Source: Citrus sinensis
Lineage: Eukaryota; Streptophyta; Magnoliopsida; Sapindales; Rutaceae
Direction: 5' to 3'
DNA: 64,000 nt
Assembly (NCBI RefSeq): GCF_022201045.2
Contig: NC_068557.1
Coordinates: 32,465,501 to 32,529,500, forward strand
In this document: positions 11,256 to 63,793 of the stretch, piece by piece
How the letters are laid out: each line of letters opens with the position of its first letter
How positions within the stretch are numbered: position 1 is the stretch's first letter
Translations under genes and position numbers: made by a program
The notes under the pieces: model-generated
What the model was told of the DNA's origin: nothing
The model's input: the letters and a program-made list of their open reading frames with translations, nothing else
The model's database searches: none

Positions 11256-12127
11256 ATGGAACGTGATTGTTGGTTGGTTAAGCAGTTTTGGCTCAACATT
11301 ATTCCGACAAGCAAACGACACAGTTTCTTTAATTCTCGGCTTAATCTTTGGCTCTGCTCGAATCTGGCTGTTAATAGTAAGGTAGGGAATGTTTCGAACT
11401 GGGCTGTTTTTTTTGGCGTCGCGTTATGGAGGATCTGGTATTGGCGAAATCAGTTTCTCTTTAACAAATTGATGTTGGACCCTTTGGCTTTGTTGGTGGA
11501 TGTCCATACAAGAGCTGAGGAGATTCACAAGCTTCATAACCACCCGTTGCTCACTAGGAATATTAGGGCTCACATGTGGATTTCTTGGCATCCTCCTGAG
11601 TGGCCCTGGTGTACTCTGAATACGGATGGTGCTCACAAGTCTCATGGGACTTCCACTGCAGGTGGTTTGATTCGAGATCACTTAGGACGTTGGCTAACAT
11701 GCTTTGGGATGATGATTGGTTCTTGCTCTGTTACTGTCGCAGAGCTCTGGGGCTTATATCAAGGGATCCAGCTTGCATGGAATTCTGGTATCCGCAGATT
11801 GAAAGCTGAAACGGATAGCTTATGCGTTACTCAAGTGGTGGCTAGACCTTCGGTGTTGACCAATGAATATGCTCTTTTGGTCCAGGCTATAAAAGATTAT
11901 CTCAAATTGGATTGACATGTTTCCATCTCTCATATCTACAAAGAAGTAAATTTTGTTGCAAATTATATGGCGAACCTCGCTTTTTCTATTCCGCTAGGCC
12001 TTACTGTGTACCCTTTCCCCCCTTTGGGCGTTAGGGCTCTGTTATTGCATGACTCTTACAGGATTTCTCACCCCCGTACTGTTGTTCTCTAGCTCTTCTT
12101 AGAGCCCCAATTAATTAAAAAAAAAAG
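11256..12127 (+). mobile_element. 5'-truncated LINE (L1 type), RNase H-like 3' end
   Basis: The plus strand encodes the C-terminal end of a plant L1 polyprotein. First come a tryptophan-rich linker (NWAVFFGVALWRIWYWRN) and a basic segment. Then comes an RNase H fold with LNTDGAHK (first catalytic Asp), AGGLIRDHLGRW, AELWGLYQGI (catalytic Glu) and ETDSLCV. A TGA at 11913-11915 interrupts it, most simply a Trp codon changed to stop. The same frame continues as HVSISHIYKEVNFVANYMAN to a TAG before 12095. An A-rich tail starts about 12117. Reverse transcriptase and endonuclease are absent, so this is a dead truncated insertion; no target duplication was confirmed. Confidence 0.85.
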
Positions 12128-55564: not shown

Positions 55565-56169
55565 TCTACAAAATCACATATACAAATACAAACATCCCAC
55601 CAATCAGAAAGGCATGTCGCAAACCTCCACATGATCGTCTTTTCATACAAAAAGAAAAATCAAGTCTTATTATCTAGAAATCAAGCCATGCACTGGATCT
55701 AAGTAATACAATTCAGTATAGACTTGCCTTGCATTTCAAACAACATAAAACTGAATACAGTGGTAAAAAAGCGATCATCCAATACAAAAACTCATAATGC
55801 GGATAAAACAAAGAGAGTACCTTGTAAACAAAAAAAAGGCAAAACTTGGATATTAATATCGATATAAAAGAACAAAAGGGCAATCCTGGATTCAATCCAA
55901 TAACATCGAACCGTTCACCGATCAAATATCAATCAACCCAGAACCCAGGATTCCTAAAAACAAAGCAAAAAAAAAAAAAAGGAAAAAGTTAATAAAACTG
56001 GTATCAAAGAATATTAAAAAAAAAAAGACAAAGATCAAGTTTTTGATGAAGAAACCCAAAAAGGCAAAGATTTTGAAGAGAAAAATTACCAAAGAGAGAG
56101 AACCCAGATGGGAAAGTGGGAGAATCTAAGATCTAAGAGGACGCATATTAAGAAGTGAGGGCGAGAAGC

Positions 56170-59100
56170 CCCCTTTCTCTTTTTTTTTTTTTTTTCTTTT
56201 ATGTTGTGTTGCTGCGATATTATTATGCAAAGAATGGATTTTTATGGCGTGTGTTGATGAGATAGAGAGAGAATGGAGCTGGATCAAAATTTAGAAATGA
56301 TTATTATTTATATTATTTAGCTTGGCCTTTGGCTGTCCTCTCGTGCAAGAGAAAAAGAATGCTACAAAGCTAGCAGCCTAGCAACTAGAAGATGGAAGAT
56401 GGTGACTTTGTATTGTTGTGTGAGTTTGATTTTAATATACATTGGTTAAATTAATGATATGCTTTTTTTTAAAAAAAATTTCTTGTAAGAGATTTATTAT
56501 TTTCTTTTTAACCTTTTACATTGACATGGGTCTGGATAATTTAGTTTTATGTTTTTTTTTTTCTTTTGTTGGAATTTTACCATGGACAATGTATCTACTT
56601 CCAATAACATCACCTTTTAAAGCAATGACTATTTCTTTTGTCCAAACAATATTTGGATGATTGTGGCTAAAAAAAGGAGATTTTGAGTGACCAGCTTCAA
56701 AAATTGTGGGAAATTTCAGGTCGCCTGTGGACTAATGTGCTCCTATGATTAGTGTTTCTTCTACTCTCGCATACTCAAAAACTGGACCGTTGTGTATTGC
56801 AGTCGTTTAAACTTCAAAGCAAGTCCTCCTCGCCCACGAACCCAAAAAGTTGAAGTTCAAAGTATTTGCTTTACGTTCGAAAATGTGTAAATTATTTCTC
56901 CATTTAAATGTGACATTTTTCATATCATTGTGTATATATATATATATATATATAAGTATAGCTTGGGGATAAAAAAGAAAAAGAAGAAAAAGGTAAAGGT
57001 TAGCCTGGATTTTACTTGTTCAAGTATAACCAACCACAAATGTGGTACTTATTTCATAGAGAGCTATTTTGTAATCGAAACTAATAAAATAGATGCAAGC
57101 AAAATAAGGAAATATAGATTACATCTTCAAACTCCGCATTCACACAATTAGAAAAAGAGTGGGTTATTTACACTCTAAATTTTATTCTAAGCACTCTAAT
57201 TTTTAATAAAAGTATTTTTACAAGACTACTCTTTATGTAATTTATTAATAAGGACAATTCAATTCTAGTTAACCAAATATTATTACGCTTGACATCATTT
57301 AACAGACACTAAATTTAATAATCCTATTATAAACCCTATAACGTTCTTCAATATCAAATCTAATTCATCATTTATAAAAGAAATATTAAAGGTTTATTAA
57401 ACACCCAACAACCTGCCAACTACGGAAATTGAAAAATAATTTTTTTTTATGCCCAAAAAAGAAGTAACATTACTTTTTTAAATAAAACTATAAGTTCCAA
57501 AGCGAAGAAAAAGAAAAGAAATCAGTTGCGTATTGTTGTTGCTTAAAGATTATTAATTAGAAATACAAATTGGACTCTAGTGTGTAACTCTGTAGTAAAA
57601 TAAGAGAAATTTCTATTTTAAAAAAAAAAGTTTATTTCATTTGAAGAGATGAGAGTGATATTTTATTAAAGAGAGATTTGAATATCTTTTTAACAATACT
57701 AAAATTATATATAATGAGTTATTTTCTCTTAATTAAGATATAAATAGAGGACAGTTTTGGCATTTGAAAGAGCGTGTAGAGTAAAAATAAATTTTTTAAA
57801 ATTTATTTATTGAGTGAATATGCAAAATAAATCAGTGTTGCAAATAAAATTTATAGTTCAAATAGCCACAATTAGAAAAGCTATTCATATTAACTAGAAA
57901 TAAAAATTGAAATGTTTTCAAATACATATGAAATTGTCAAATTATGTCTTAATGTGATTTTGTTTAAGAAAAATTCTGATTTTTACAAGTGAATTATGGC
58001 ACACTCCATCATTTGGATATTTACAAAATCTCCCATTTTGGTAAAAAAAAAAAAAAAAAAAGGGAAGAATAACTAATCAATCATAAACATATTAATTTCA
58101 AGGACAAATAAATTAGGTTGTGAATACATACAGGAATAATGAACTATTTTGAATTTCAACCTAGTTAACACAACTATATTGCTTTATTTGGAGGCAAGGA
58201 ATGAATTTGTTTATCAAAATCAAAATATATAGCCTCGCAATAATCTATCACTTTTGAATAAGAACTTGCCAACAATATGGCACCTTAGAATAAAGTTTAA
58301 AGTTGACAGATGGAACTAAATAGAAAGAAAAAAGAAAAGAAAAAAACAGAGCAATGAGTGGATTTTTGCATCAAACGTGAGAGAATAGATAAGACGGGCA
58401 CTACAAAAAATGGGTTTTGTATGCGATCTTTTTGAGTAAAAAATTTAAGACAAAGTGGGAGGGATGTGGGAGGGACAGAAGGGATTGCTTGTGTTTCCAC
58501 TCATCCAAAGGAATACAAAAACAGTAACCAGTGAGATTAGATTTAGATTTAGATTAGATTAGATTAGATGGATCCAACATAACATCACACATTTGGAGCA
58601 CACACAACACAACACCACATGCATGCATGACATAACATACTCTAATTATTGACAATATAAAATCATCACCCACAAGCTCTTCAATTTTATGATTTAATAC
58701 AAAAGGTTTCTCGTGCCCTATAGCCAGGTCAAATTATTTTGTCTCTAACTCCTTGTTGATGAAAATTATGAAAACTAGTCGGCCATAAAATTTTTTAATT
58801 AGAATATATAAGATTAATGAGTAGAGGCAAGTGGTGAACTATTTAATTGCTGTAATGATTGGAATCAAATAGAGGTGGAGTATAAAGTAGTCACTGTGAT
58901 TCTTTGAAAAAAGTTGCAGGTCATTAAACTATACAACTCGAAGCCGGTGAAATATGTTAGCCACAAATCATGTCTCATTTGCCCAGCTGAAAAATGGACA
59001 TTACAACTAGCCTAGTTGCACTAGACATGCATATATATATAAACGTAGTGGGATTTGAGGTCAATGTTTACCTCCAATTATAAGAAGTGATATTTTTAAG

Positions 59101-60470
59101 ACTCGCTAATGTGCTTGCGTTAATTATATAAAATAAAATAAATATATATAAAGTAATTATCTAATGATAGTGAGATTTAATTGCTAAGTATAAGGTTTGT
59201 TTGATGCAACTGCTCCACTTCCTATATTTTAAGTGAACTGATCATTCTTCTAAAAAAAAAAAGAGTGAATTGATCATTCATTTAGAGTTCTTCAATTTTT
59301 TTTAATCTATTGTTTTATGGAAATGGCATGCAAAAAGCCTCGTGGTCCTCCATTATTGTCTCCAATTTGTGTTGGCGGATGTAAAAACCAAATAAATGAA
59401 TCGAGTGACTTTATTTACTTATTAAAATTCATTTTTATCAGCAATTTAAGTGGTTATTAAAGCAGTTTTTTTTTAAAAAATTGACCAGGGATCTGAAGCG
59501 AGTAAACACAAAATCAAAATCAAACTTTATGAGTGAGTGTTTAAGCAATAGTGAATTTTTTTAAAAAAGTAAATATAAATTGACCTAGACTAACATAAGT
59601 GGTCAATTGGATAGCATTTGATTTTTTTTAAATACATAGATAAACATGATTAAAAATGCACATGGAAGATGATAATTATGTGGGAAGTGGTTCAAATGTC
59701 TCCTAGATTCCTACCATGTTTCTGTAAAAAGGCTTATTTCATGGCAACCACTTGATTAAGTGGGAGACCAAACGCTTGTAGATACAGCATTTATAGTAAA
59801 TTCCACAATACAAAGACAGCTTATCCTATATCAAAGCTAAAATCTTTGACATAGGACAAACTCTCTTATAAATCGGTTGAATATTATATGATGATTTCAT
59901 ATTACTTAAGGAACCCTATCAAATTTTCAGCTTGTTTTAATTATAAGAAGATAAGCCTCCCACCCCCTCACCTTTTTATTGAGACTCATTTTGTGGTGTA
60001 TGTTTGTGTTTTGGTTTTGGGGGAGAATGAATGTTAAATGCTGTCATTATTTGTTATAATTTTGATGGTATGGTCAGAGTTAATAATTTACATTGCTTCC
60101 ATTTCATTAATAGGTATGGGGTGCTACATGACAATTTTTCAACAAACTCTTTAAGCCGAATGGAAATAAATAACCATTACAGTGAGGAATGTCCAATTCC
60201 AAGTAAGCAAAGAAGACAACATGACGAGATTCATTTTAAATTGGTGGAATAACGAATGATGTTTTGTACTAGAATGAAATTTTCTGTACACACTCTCGTC
60301 GCTGGGCGGGCCTGGATGGGTAAAAACAAAAAAAATAAAAACAACGAAACTCCCCGTAAACCCCTACCCTCGCTCTTTAGTCTTAGAGCACCCTCCCTTG
60401 TCTCCCACACCTTCAAATCCTTAAACCCTGAAATTAACCGAAGCATGCCAAAATTGCTCAAACCCTAACC
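56170..60470. other. AT-rich intergenic sequence, no gene seen
   Basis: Promoter side of the hnRNP gene, then AT-rich DNA to the thymidine kinase leader. Contains an (AT)n tract near 56934-56953. There is a possible small element between about 57155 and 57800 with loosely inverted ATTTACACTCTAAATTTTAT / ATTTTTACTCTACACGCTC ends. No exon or RNA gene was identified. Confidence 0.5.
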
Positions 60471-60483
60471 TCCCTCTAACTGA

Positions 60484-63358
60484 ATGTCAACTATTTCAAG
60501 AATGAAGTGTCTAATAACCCCGCCCTTTTCATTGACACCCATCTCCCTTCACCTCTCGAAGGCCACAACTCTTGCCTCAAAATCCTGTTTTTTGAATCCC
60601 GCAACGTCTCTTCGAAACCCTAAATTTATCCACTCAATGGTTTCGCCCAGACCCCCTCTTTTCTCCTTACAAAATCGAAACCTGCATTCGGAGGCCTCTG
60701 TTTCTTCGCCCTCAGGTGAGATTCACGTGATCGTAGGACCCATGTTTGCCGGAAAAACGACCACGCTTCTTCGAAGAATTCAAGCTGAGACCCAAAAGGG
60801 CAGGTTTGTTGCTTCTCTTTTATTTTATTCATGTTTTATTCAATGGGTTTGCTTGGGATTTGACTGTATTACTTGTGGCATTTGTTTTAAGTGTTGGGTC
60901 GTGTCTATCAATAGGTACCGTTGTGGGAATGCATCAATTTTATTCCTAAAGTTTGATTGTTCTGAATTCTAATTTTTCATTAAATTTAGTTTGATGGACT
61001 GGAATTGCAAATATGTTTATGTTCCATGATCGAATGGGATTGTCACTGCTGAGATATTCCCAGCTTTCAGGTCAATCTACGTAACAATGTCATCCAATTG
61101 GATGAAGCAATAAGGGGCCTTTGTTTTTCTGGGAGATTAAGTGAAGCTATTGGATTATTATGGCGAACAGGGTTGAAAGTGGATGAGGGGACATACGCTC
61201 TTTTGTTGCAAGAGTGCATATTCACAAAAGAATATAGAAAAGGGAGAAGAATTCATGCTCAAATGGTTATTGTTGGATATGTTCCCAATGAATATATCAA
61301 AACCAAATTGTTGATATTGTATGCAAAATATGGGGATCTAGTAACTGCTCATGTTCTGTTTTATAAGCTGCAGCAAAAAAGTTTGATTTCTTGGAATGCT
61401 ATAATTGCTGGATATGTGCAAAAAGGCTTTGAAGAAGTTGGACTGGATTATTATTACAAGATGAGGGAAAATGGTTTGAGACCGGACCAGTATACGTTTG
61501 CATCAATTTTCAGAGCGTGTGCCACCTTGGCCACATTGGACTACGGGAAACGAGCCCATGGTCTCATGATCAAGTGTGGTATTAGAGAAAACGTTGTAGT
61601 TAATAGTGCTCTTATAGATATGTACTTCAAATGCAGTAGTATCTCTGATGGGCGTCAAGTATTTGATAAATTGTCAAATAGAAATGTTGTTACTTGGACT
61701 TCTTTGATAGCTGGGTATGGACAGCATGGAAGAGTCGTAGAGGTTTTTCAATTATTTCATAGGATGACAAGTGAAGGTTTCAGACCAAATTACGTTACTT
61801 TTCTTGCTGTGCTTTCTGCTTGTGACCATGGAGGTCTTGTCAATAAAGGCTGGGATTACTTCTCATCCATGTTGAGGGATTATGGAATCCAACCTAGAGG
61901 GAAACATTATGCAGCCATAGTTGATCTTTTGGGACGTGCTGGGAAGTTACAAGAGGCTTATGAGTTTGTTCTTAGTTCACCTTGTATGGAACACTCTGTA
62001 GTATGGGGTGCTTTACTTGGGGCATGTAGAATTCATGGAGACATTGACCTGGTGAAGGTGGCAGCTAAGAAGTACTTCGAATTGGACCCAGAAAATGCTG
62101 GGAAGTATGTGGTCTTGGCGAATGCATATGCCAATGTTGGGTCCTGGGACAATGTTGAGGAGGTTAGGGGGATGATGCGGGATTTAGGGGTGGTCAAAGA
62201 GCCTGGTTATAGCAGGATCGAAGTTTTAGGGATGGTCCACTTCTTCGTAATGGGCGATAAATCGCATAAGCATTCTAAGGAGATTAATCAGATGATTAAG
62301 GAAATAACATGCATTTTAAAGGATGCTGGCTGTGTTCTTGATTGAAGTGGGAACTAGTCCAAGTTTTTGCACTTACTATTTCCTTTTTTTGCAGAAATGT
62401 AGCAGTAATAAAATCCAATAAGGATACAAGATATGGGTTAGATTCCATAGTTACACATGATGGGGTGAAATTGCCATGTTGTGCGTTGACCACCTTGTCA
62501 TCATTCAGACAAAAATTCGGTTCTGATGCTTATGATCAGGTAATTCAATGTGAAAATTGATGATCTGTGTCATGAAAAATGGTACTCTGTAAATACTTAA
62601 TTATTAGTCCAATTTCTATGAAAGTAAGTAATTCCAATTGTTTTCTCAAAAAACATAAAAAATAGAAAAATCCTAATTGTGAATGTGCAGTTCATTTGTA
62701 CCTGGTTAATGGATGCTGCATTTTTTTTTTTTAAAAGGTTAATGAACCTTATAAAATATAAGGCAAAGCATGTATGGCAGAAGGCTGCCATCAATTTTTA
62801 TAAATTTTGGTTGTGATTATATATTTGTTGAAGCCTTCCATGTACGTGTGCACCTTTTTTAAATGTCATATTCATGTCCAATACTTGGTGACAGGTAGAT
62901 GTGATCGGCATTGATGAGGCTCAATTCTTTGAAGACCTTTATGATTTCTGCCGTGAAGCTGCTGATCATGATGGAAAAACTGTGATAGTTGCTGGACTAG
63001 ATGGTGACTATTTGAGGTATGTGAAGGTACTTTCCTCCAATTGCCCATCTCATTTTTATAACAGTTTTATTGGGGTTTTGACGGCGGGAAATGTTGTTGC
63101 AGAAGGAGTTTTGGTTCTGTGATTGATATAATTCCGCTTGCTGATTCTGTAACCAAATTAACTGCTCGATGCGAGTTCTGTGGGAAGCGTGCTTTCTTCA
63201 CTTTAAGGAAGACTGAGGAGACAAAGACGGAATTGATTGGAGGGTCTGATATCTACATGCCTGTGTGCCGGCAGCACTATGTAAGCGGACAAGTAGTTGT
63301 AGAAGCTGCAAGAATTGTGCTAGAGTCTCAGAAGGTTCAGTGTGGCTCCTATGTGTAA
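60484..63358 (+). CDS. Thymidine kinase, TK1 type, organelle-targeted form
   Basis: Four exons (60484-60803, 62395-62539, 62895-63016, 63103-63358) encode 280 residues. The enzyme phosphorylates thymidine to TMP in the salvage pathway. Residues 1-77 are Ser/Arg/Leu-rich and poor in acidic residues, consistent with a plastid/mitochondrial transit peptide (TK1b type). The catalytic core has the P-loop GPMFAGKTT (85-93), the Walker-B-like IDEAQFF, the [13 protein letters not shown] segment, and zinc ligands in [10 protein letters not shown] plus the C-terminal CRQHY. The lasso region ([13 protein letters not shown]) is complete. Intron 1 is 1.6 kb and contains a same-strand PPR gene; the other introns are short. 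Confidence 0.93.
61064..62345 (+). CDS. PLS-class pentatricopeptide-repeat protein nested in thymidine kinase intron 1
   Basis: A long intron-free frame encodes about 425 residues of PPR repeats. It includes [60 protein letters not shown] and [19 protein letters not shown], then an E-type tail ([40 protein letters not shown]). There is no DYW domain. PPR proteins bind organellar RNA for editing, splicing or stability. The frame is open back to a TGA at 61050-61052 but has no ATG before repeat sequence begins; the first is at about 61263, inside a repeat. So a 5' exon must supply the start. Acceptors lie at 61063/61064 and 61070/61071. The first joins thymidine kinase exon 1 (ends 60803) in frame and gives 533 residues. 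Closest recalled relative is At4g16470. Confidence 0.85.
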
Positions 63359-63719: not shown

Positions 63720-63793
63720 TGCTTTCATTGAGAGTCGAACTCAAGACCTCCCGCTTACTAAACGGGTGCTCTAACCAACTGAGCTATGAAAGC
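63720..63793 (-). tRNA. tRNA-Thr (anticodon AGU)
   Basis: The minus strand folds as a complete cloverleaf. The acceptor GCTTTCA pairs perfectly with TGAAAGC. The D arm is GCTC...GAGC, with A-box-like TAGCTCAGTTGG. The anticodon stem CCCGT/GCGGG encloses loop TTAGTAA (anticodon AGT). The variable loop is AGGTC, and the T arm TTGAG/CTCAA encloses TTCGACT (B box). The discriminator is A. There is no intron. Convergent with thymidine kinase. Confidence 0.95.

Follow-up and report, generated by a model that had tools for sequence, protein, structure and literature searches.

The locus near the right end of the window, by which the whole stretch of 64 kb of DNA that was analysed is meant, raises the question of how a coding frame that lies in the intron of another gene, and that has no early start codon of its own, could be translated and delivered to an organelle. 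The window spans C2:32465501-32529500, and its gene content is that of a flowering plant. The host is a gene for a TK1-type thymidine kinase with four exons and a product of 280 residues, and its intron 1 of 1591 nt houses a PPR frame of 430 codons (61053-62345). As stated in an initial annotation of this DNA, the frame is closed on its 5' side by an in-frame TGA (61050-61052); from there it is open through 62345, and its earliest in-frame ATG is found at 61263, which is codon 71, so that the further claim of that annotation, namely that no ATG precedes the PPR repeats, is borne out. Among control PPR frames from the same genome, the first ATG lies at or before codon 39 in all 45 frames with a known 5' end. 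These are the frames with a 5' stop inside the fetched stretch, out of 49 that were fetched from the best matches of the genome and thus do not represent a random sample; in the four controls that were dropped (L008, L036, L046 and L054), the first ATG has the 0-based index 31, 11, 65 and 3 of the cut frame, respectively. The intactness of the PPR frame, together with its lack of an early ATG, exceeds what is expected by chance, and the description of a kinase intron with a PPR frame that lacks an early start of its own is correct, and the case is unusual. The coordinates of the features are collected in Table 1.

Table 1. Features of the thymidine kinase-PPR locus, with positions in the window, strand and supporting observations; a slash within a motif marks the exon boundary.
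Feature	Position	Strand	Observations
Kinase exon 1, candidate shared leader exon: organelle leader and start of the kinase domain with P-loop	60484..60803	+	Pfam TK 8.9e-6; leader composition
Strong internal donor-like site CAG/GTGAGA	60713..60721	+	exon end 60715, phase 1, 8.6 bits; ahead of P-loop and kinase domain
U-rich intron-like segment, from kinase exon 1 to PPR exon	60804..61063	+	T 0.45, A 0.215
Acceptor AG of the initial annotation	61062..61063	+	exon start 61064, phase 2, matching the frame of exon 1; CCCAG/C, 3.4 bits
Nested PPR coding exon	61064..62345	+	PPR repeats and E motif, no ATG ahead of repeats; candidate 5' edges 61064, 61071, 61136, 61171
Stronger tandem acceptor AG	61069..61070	+	exon from 61071, phase 0, TTCAG/G, 7.2 bits; out of frame with exon 1
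Candidate internal acceptor AG	61134..61135	+	exon from 61136, phase 2, 4.3 bits; in frame with donor 60803
Candidate internal acceptor AG	61169..61170	+	exon from 61171, phase 1, 6.3 bits; partner donor 60715
Kinase exon 2	62395..62539	+	acceptor 11.0 bits, donor 10.2 bits; frame
AATAAA, candidate PPR polyadenylation signal	62407..62412	+	pattern only; in kinase exon 2, some 60 nt downstream of the PPR stop
Kinase exon 3	62895..63016	+	frame; intron places match those of the paralog
Kinase exon 4 with stop codon	63103..63358	+	frame; Pfam TK 1.3e-15

PPR proteins are encoded by a family of nuclear genes, and those that carry an E motif are editing-type factors. In the nested frame, the Pfam models for PPR (PF01535, 4.4e-31), PPR_2 (1.3e-30) and the E motif (PF20431, 8.8e-16) were found, while the E+ motif (PF20430) scored 20.7 bits and thus remained under its cut-off of 24; judging by these domains, the guest is likely a nuclear gene for an organelle RNA-processing protein with PPR repeats and an E motif. 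A candidate for its relative in Arabidopsis is At4g16470, a free-standing gene. With the control PPR frames as training set, a codon model scored the frame as coding-like, at +63 bits over 424 codons, left the 33 codons at the start of the PPR exon (61071-61169) undecided at -0.05 per codon, and did not recognise kinase exon 1 (about zero, with -0.13 per codon in its leader part). Since the model is blind to kinase exon 1 and to the first 33 PPR codons, it can neither fix the edge of the PPR exon nor rule out that a leader exon lies elsewhere. Among the 169 matches reported for the same genome, with 98 of 956 candidates scored, no further copy of the PPR gene appeared; identity is 41% for the next-best match and does not exceed 46% among the matches listed. 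Nor did this genome yield another copy of the intron segment 60804-61063 or of kinase exon 1, whose other match is the kinase part of a thymidine kinase paralog. Relatives were also sought in collections of prokaryote and viral contigs, which gave 19 and 1 pattern matches, respectively, none of them confirmed. Elsewhere in the window, an open frame at 11256-11915 resembles, by reading, the RNase H portion of a retroelement.

The kinase domain (TK, PF00265) scored above the cut-off on exons 1, 3 and 4 of the host gene, and exon 2 was assigned by alignment with the paralog. Exon 1 comprises 320 nt and ends in phase 2 at 60803, in agreement with the initial annotation, with the donor CAG/GTTTGT scoring 9.1 bits; provided that the kinase gene is expressed, the kinase is certain to use this donor. 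Within its first 60 residues, exon 1 encodes no D/E, 7 K/R and 16 S/T, compared to means of 2.9 acidic, 6.9 basic and 11.2 S/T residues in the 45 control PPR frames. Exon 1 therefore appears organelle leader-like, as previously proposed, and by this composition the kinase is putatively organellar. The second TK1-type gene of the genome, located on C2 at 20.57 Mb (L005:4898-6227), encodes 240 residues and has all three introns at the positions of the gene in the window. Its intron 1 has the same position and phase (phase 2) with a length of only 100 nt and contains no PPR gene, and its exon 1 provides about 30 residues ahead of the kinase domain, hence no long leader. Two further observations concern the surroundings of the host gene. 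A frame of 7 codons with an upstream ATG (60445-60468) stops 15 nt ahead of the kinase ATG and overlaps AAACCCTAA, a telo-box-like motif; a tRNA-Thr (AGT) gene lies just past the kinase gene on the minus strand (63720-63793).

An organelle targeting peptide is absent from the PPR exon and can be reached only via kinase exon 1 or via a putative upstream exon. The splice sites that could connect these parts were scored with matrices that approximate dicot frequencies, for which the six donors and six acceptors of both thymidine kinase genes served as a yardstick. The join proposed in the initial annotation, from donor 60803 to an exon starting at 61064 (written 60803/61064 in the following), restores an AGC codon and yields 533 residues with a single terminal stop, which we reproduced. 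However, acceptor 61064 scores lower than all six known thymidine kinase acceptors (5.4-11.0 bits), and the product would carry about 30 kinase residues including the P-loop, a difficulty that the initial annotation had itself pointed out and that applies to the 533-residue product but can be avoided with another pair of sites, 60715/61171. AGs in all three phases cluster near the start of the PPR frame, and a total of 73 in-frame kinase joins results from combining kinase-frame donors of at least 1 bit with the 18 AGs ahead of 61263, so that a phase match is not beyond chance; agreement in phase was accordingly dropped as evidence for a shared exon. The best acceptor near the PPR start is 61071, which requires a phase 0 donor; joined to 60803, it is followed by 14 codons and then a stop. 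In 60803/61136, with 509 residues, the kinase residues KG run directly into RLSEAIGLL of the first PPR repeat. The internal donor 60715 leads to early stops when joined to 61064, 61071 or 62395, whereas 60715/61171 gives 468 residues in which the leader is kept and the P-loop omitted.

Ranked by the sum of their site scores, the kinase join 60803/62395 (about 20.1) is followed by the out-of-frame join 60803/61071 (about 16.3), and the in-frame kinase joins 60715/61171, 60803/61136 and 60803/61064 reach 14.96, 13.34 and 12.45, respectively. Upstream donors reach comparable values, with about 14.4 for 60067/61071, about 12.8 for 59059/61071 and up to 13.55 for phase 1 joins to 61171 (13.03-13.55 in the best 6 of 17 rows), but none of these joins has a convincing leader. 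Extensions of kinase exon 1 via the donors 60846 (3.3 bits) and 60914 (3.9 bits), or the use of the earlier donor 60743 (4.0 bits), are weak alternatives.

The search for a rival 5' exon took all ATGs between 56000 and 61049 whose frame stays open up to a donor of at least 4 bits (donors up to 61000) and can be joined in phase to 61064 or 61071. It thus covers 5' ends with a single intron from 56000 on. Of the 33 rows obtained, 7 belong to the kinase frame (donors 60803 and 60743), the other 26 lying upstream of it. The upstream rows represent 15 donors, as opposed to 15.8 +/- 3.8 in 200 dinucleotide shuffles of the region 56000-60483, and the best upstream donor score was matched in 91% of these shuffles. 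Three upstream donors have frames of at least 30 codons, compared to a shuffle mean of 1.4, and the longest upstream peptide has 45 residues. A lax leader test, requiring at least 30 residues and, within the first 60, at least 4 K/R and at most 2 D/E, was passed by 5 of the 26 upstream rows on three donors (56590, 59995 and 59997); among the shuffles, 101 of 200 contained at least one such leader-like donor and 28 of 200 at least two. The most plausible of these upstream leader-like frames is 59888-59995, with 36 residues, a donor of 4.6 bits and a phase that fits 61071. Kinase exon 1 is the sole long leader-like start exon, that is with more than 45 residues, that has a donor of at least 4 bits in the enumerated stretch, while the PPR frame may instead have a short upstream leader. 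Two further starts were rejected. Between 60804 and 61056, a single ATG-donor pair exists at a threshold of 0 bits, with 7 codons and a donor of 1.2 bits, which agrees with the earlier impression that intron 1 offers no good pair. A start at the internal ATG 61263 would lose the first repeats, and the 60 residues that follow it include 4 acidic and 4 S/T residues.

The T-A skew of the intron-like segment 60804-61063 was reached by 0.9% of 3187 overlapping windows of 260 nt across the 64 kb, and its T content alone by 3.7% of them. This composition fits a short plant intron on this strand, and which donor or acceptor would be used is not indicated by it.

Taken together, we favour, though not firmly, the explanation that the PPR exon shares the leader in kinase exon 1, with an acceptor choice at 61064 or 61136, a tentative reading to which we give slightly less than an even chance. 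The initial annotation had proposed such a sharing of exon 1 by alternative splicing, and it is partly supported: no long rival leader exon with a donor of at least 4 bits was found in the enumerated stretch and exon 1 is leader-like, whereas the acceptor 61064 is weak, the stronger neighbour 61071 is out of frame, and joins with higher scores exist. The strongest competitor, unlikely by our estimate though to be taken seriously, is an independent promoter with one or more 5' exons, placed ahead of the kinase or so small that a single-intron enumeration misses them, and joined in phase 0 to 61071; the two genes would then merely overlap. The rank of 61071 among the nearby acceptors fits this, as do the phase 0 donors upstream at 60067 (7.2 bits), 59059 (5.7 bits) and 59995 (4.6 bits), the excess of donors with at least 30 codons over the shuffles, and the frame 59888-59995, which passes the lax leader test in the fitting phase. 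Yet the upstream candidates are at chance level in number and strength as well as in leader-like composition, the strongest donors yield only 1 to 27 residues (phases 0 and 2), and the codon score of 59888-59995 is negative (-0.15 per codon), although this is also true of the leader part of the kinase exon. The outcome of the lax leader test shifted our estimates a little, lowering that of the shared leader from evenly balanced to just under it and raising that of an independent exon from about a quarter to somewhat above it.

A shared leader could also be spliced from the internal donor 60715 to 61171, which would place a leader of 77 residues ahead of the PPR repeats and dispense with both the P-loop and the first, incomplete repeat. 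Both sites are in phase 1, their sum is the highest among the 73 in-frame kinase joins, and the P-loop problem disappears; nevertheless, we consider this version very improbable. It discards 61071-61170, a segment that is open, exon-like in composition and not U-rich (T 0.31) and that overlaps a weak PPR match (PPR_1, E 0.014, under the family cut-off), and the lower rank of this join follows from these two properties. The argument is a soft one, because the codon score of this segment is undecided and the controls match weakly: a phmmer comparison of the first 47 repeat residues with the control frames gave weak scattered matches alone. Moreover, donor 60715 lies in the SGE codons ahead of the kinase domain, and since SGE also occurs in the paralog, these codons may serve the protein. 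Finally, the PPR frame might be a relic that lost its 5' end on landing in the intron and whose decay is yet to come, which would account for the lack of an own early ATG or leader and for the stop that results when its best acceptor is joined to exon 1. We regard this as improbable, less so than the 60715/61171 version, as the 430 codons are intact including the E motif, codon use is coding-like, and no second copy was found that could supply the function.

Under the favoured reading, the shared leader, the kinase promoter would drive PPR expression through an alternative choice of 3' splice sites, in which donor 60803 would join either the distal acceptor 62395, producing the kinase, or a proximal PPR acceptor (61064, perhaps 61136), and the leader in kinase exon 1 would take both products into the same organelles. 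What the analysis shows is the anatomy of the locus, its reading frames, the absence of an early ATG and of a second copy among the matches, and the absence of a long rival leader exon with a donor of at least 4 bits in the enumerated stretch; splicing with its precise junction, import and the role of the PPR protein are inferred. The distal kinase acceptor outscores the PPR acceptors, which would allow both to be used. Since the strong acceptor 61071 is out of frame, such a simple model predicts that much of the proximal splicing is unproductive. In its full form, a single promoter and leader exon would serve an organellar DNA-precursor enzyme and an organellar RNA-processing PPR protein, the competition between a strong distal acceptor and weak proximal ones would set their ratio, and the tandem 61064/61071 would add a non-productive outcome; this extended version is possible but more doubtful than the sharing of the leader as such.

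The 3' end of the PPR message has to be considered as well. Between the PPR stop and kinase exon 2 lie 49 nt, and the stop precedes the junction of kinase exons 2 and 3 by 194 nt. A stop well ahead of an exon junction invites nonsense-mediated decay, and a message that reads through into the kinase exons should therefore be decay-prone, so that the PPR message may be subject to this decay unless it is polyadenylated early. The AATAAA in kinase exon 2 could end it early, but as a single hexamer it is weak evidence.

If the shared-leader reading is true, splice-site choice at this locus would link the supply of thymidylate to organelle DNA and the production of a factor for organelle RNA processing, and PPR genes would join the transferred ribosomal genes as users of a shared leader exon. 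Annotation should take it as a warning, since a PPR gene of this kind would be recorded as leaderless or as a fusion with the kinase. Among the publications listed by a search of the open literature and few subscription journals, none deals with this pair of thymidine kinase and PPR gene.

Each of the two parts can be compared with known proteins. According to PMC7463494, a leader of 72 residues of maize TK1 is sufficient for the chloroplast import of GFP, and the gene in the window resembles maize TK1 and Arabidopsis TK1b in combining the TK domain with an N-terminal leader. As in Arabidopsis, with its cytosolic TK1a, the genome also has a paralog without a long leader (PMC7463494). Unlike these organellar kinases, the gene in the window has an intron 1 of 1591 nt that houses a PPR gene. 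The guest, in turn, has the PPR repeats and E motif of the E-motif PPR proteins but differs from them in that its coding exon lacks an own early start codon and leader and in that its E+ match is under the cut-off.

The arrangement as a whole recalls two nested pairs described in plants. In rice and maize, sdhB and rps14 use a common presequence by alternative splicing (Kubo 1999; Figueroa 1999; both as cited in PMC2631504). As in sdhB-rps14, an unrelated gene for an organelle protein is integrated within a gene for another one; the guest there is a ribosomal gene of mitochondrial origin, whereas here it is a PPR gene, and a shared transcript has been reported there, whereas we infer one at the thymidine kinase-PPR locus. 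In the SODcp-RPL32 pair of Malpighiales (PMC8429499), where the host encodes an enzyme targeted to plastids, the guest sits in a host intron and uses the transit peptide of its host, and alternative splicing makes both proteins. The PPR gene is likewise placed in an intron of its host and would use the host's transit peptide. It differs from the SODcp-RPL32 guest, a plastid-derived ribosomal gene that in Viola is found in the eighth exon (PMC8429499), by its position in intron 1 directly behind the leader exon, where sharing that exon would attach a piece of the kinase domain. The PPR coding exon (61064-62345) lies within the host intron (60804-62394) on the same strand, as in these leader-sharing nested pairs. 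Leader sharing by a nested gene is thus already known, with transcripts reported for both pairs, and if the reading proposed here holds, a PPR gene in the role of the guest, instead of an organelle-derived ribosomal gene, would be new.
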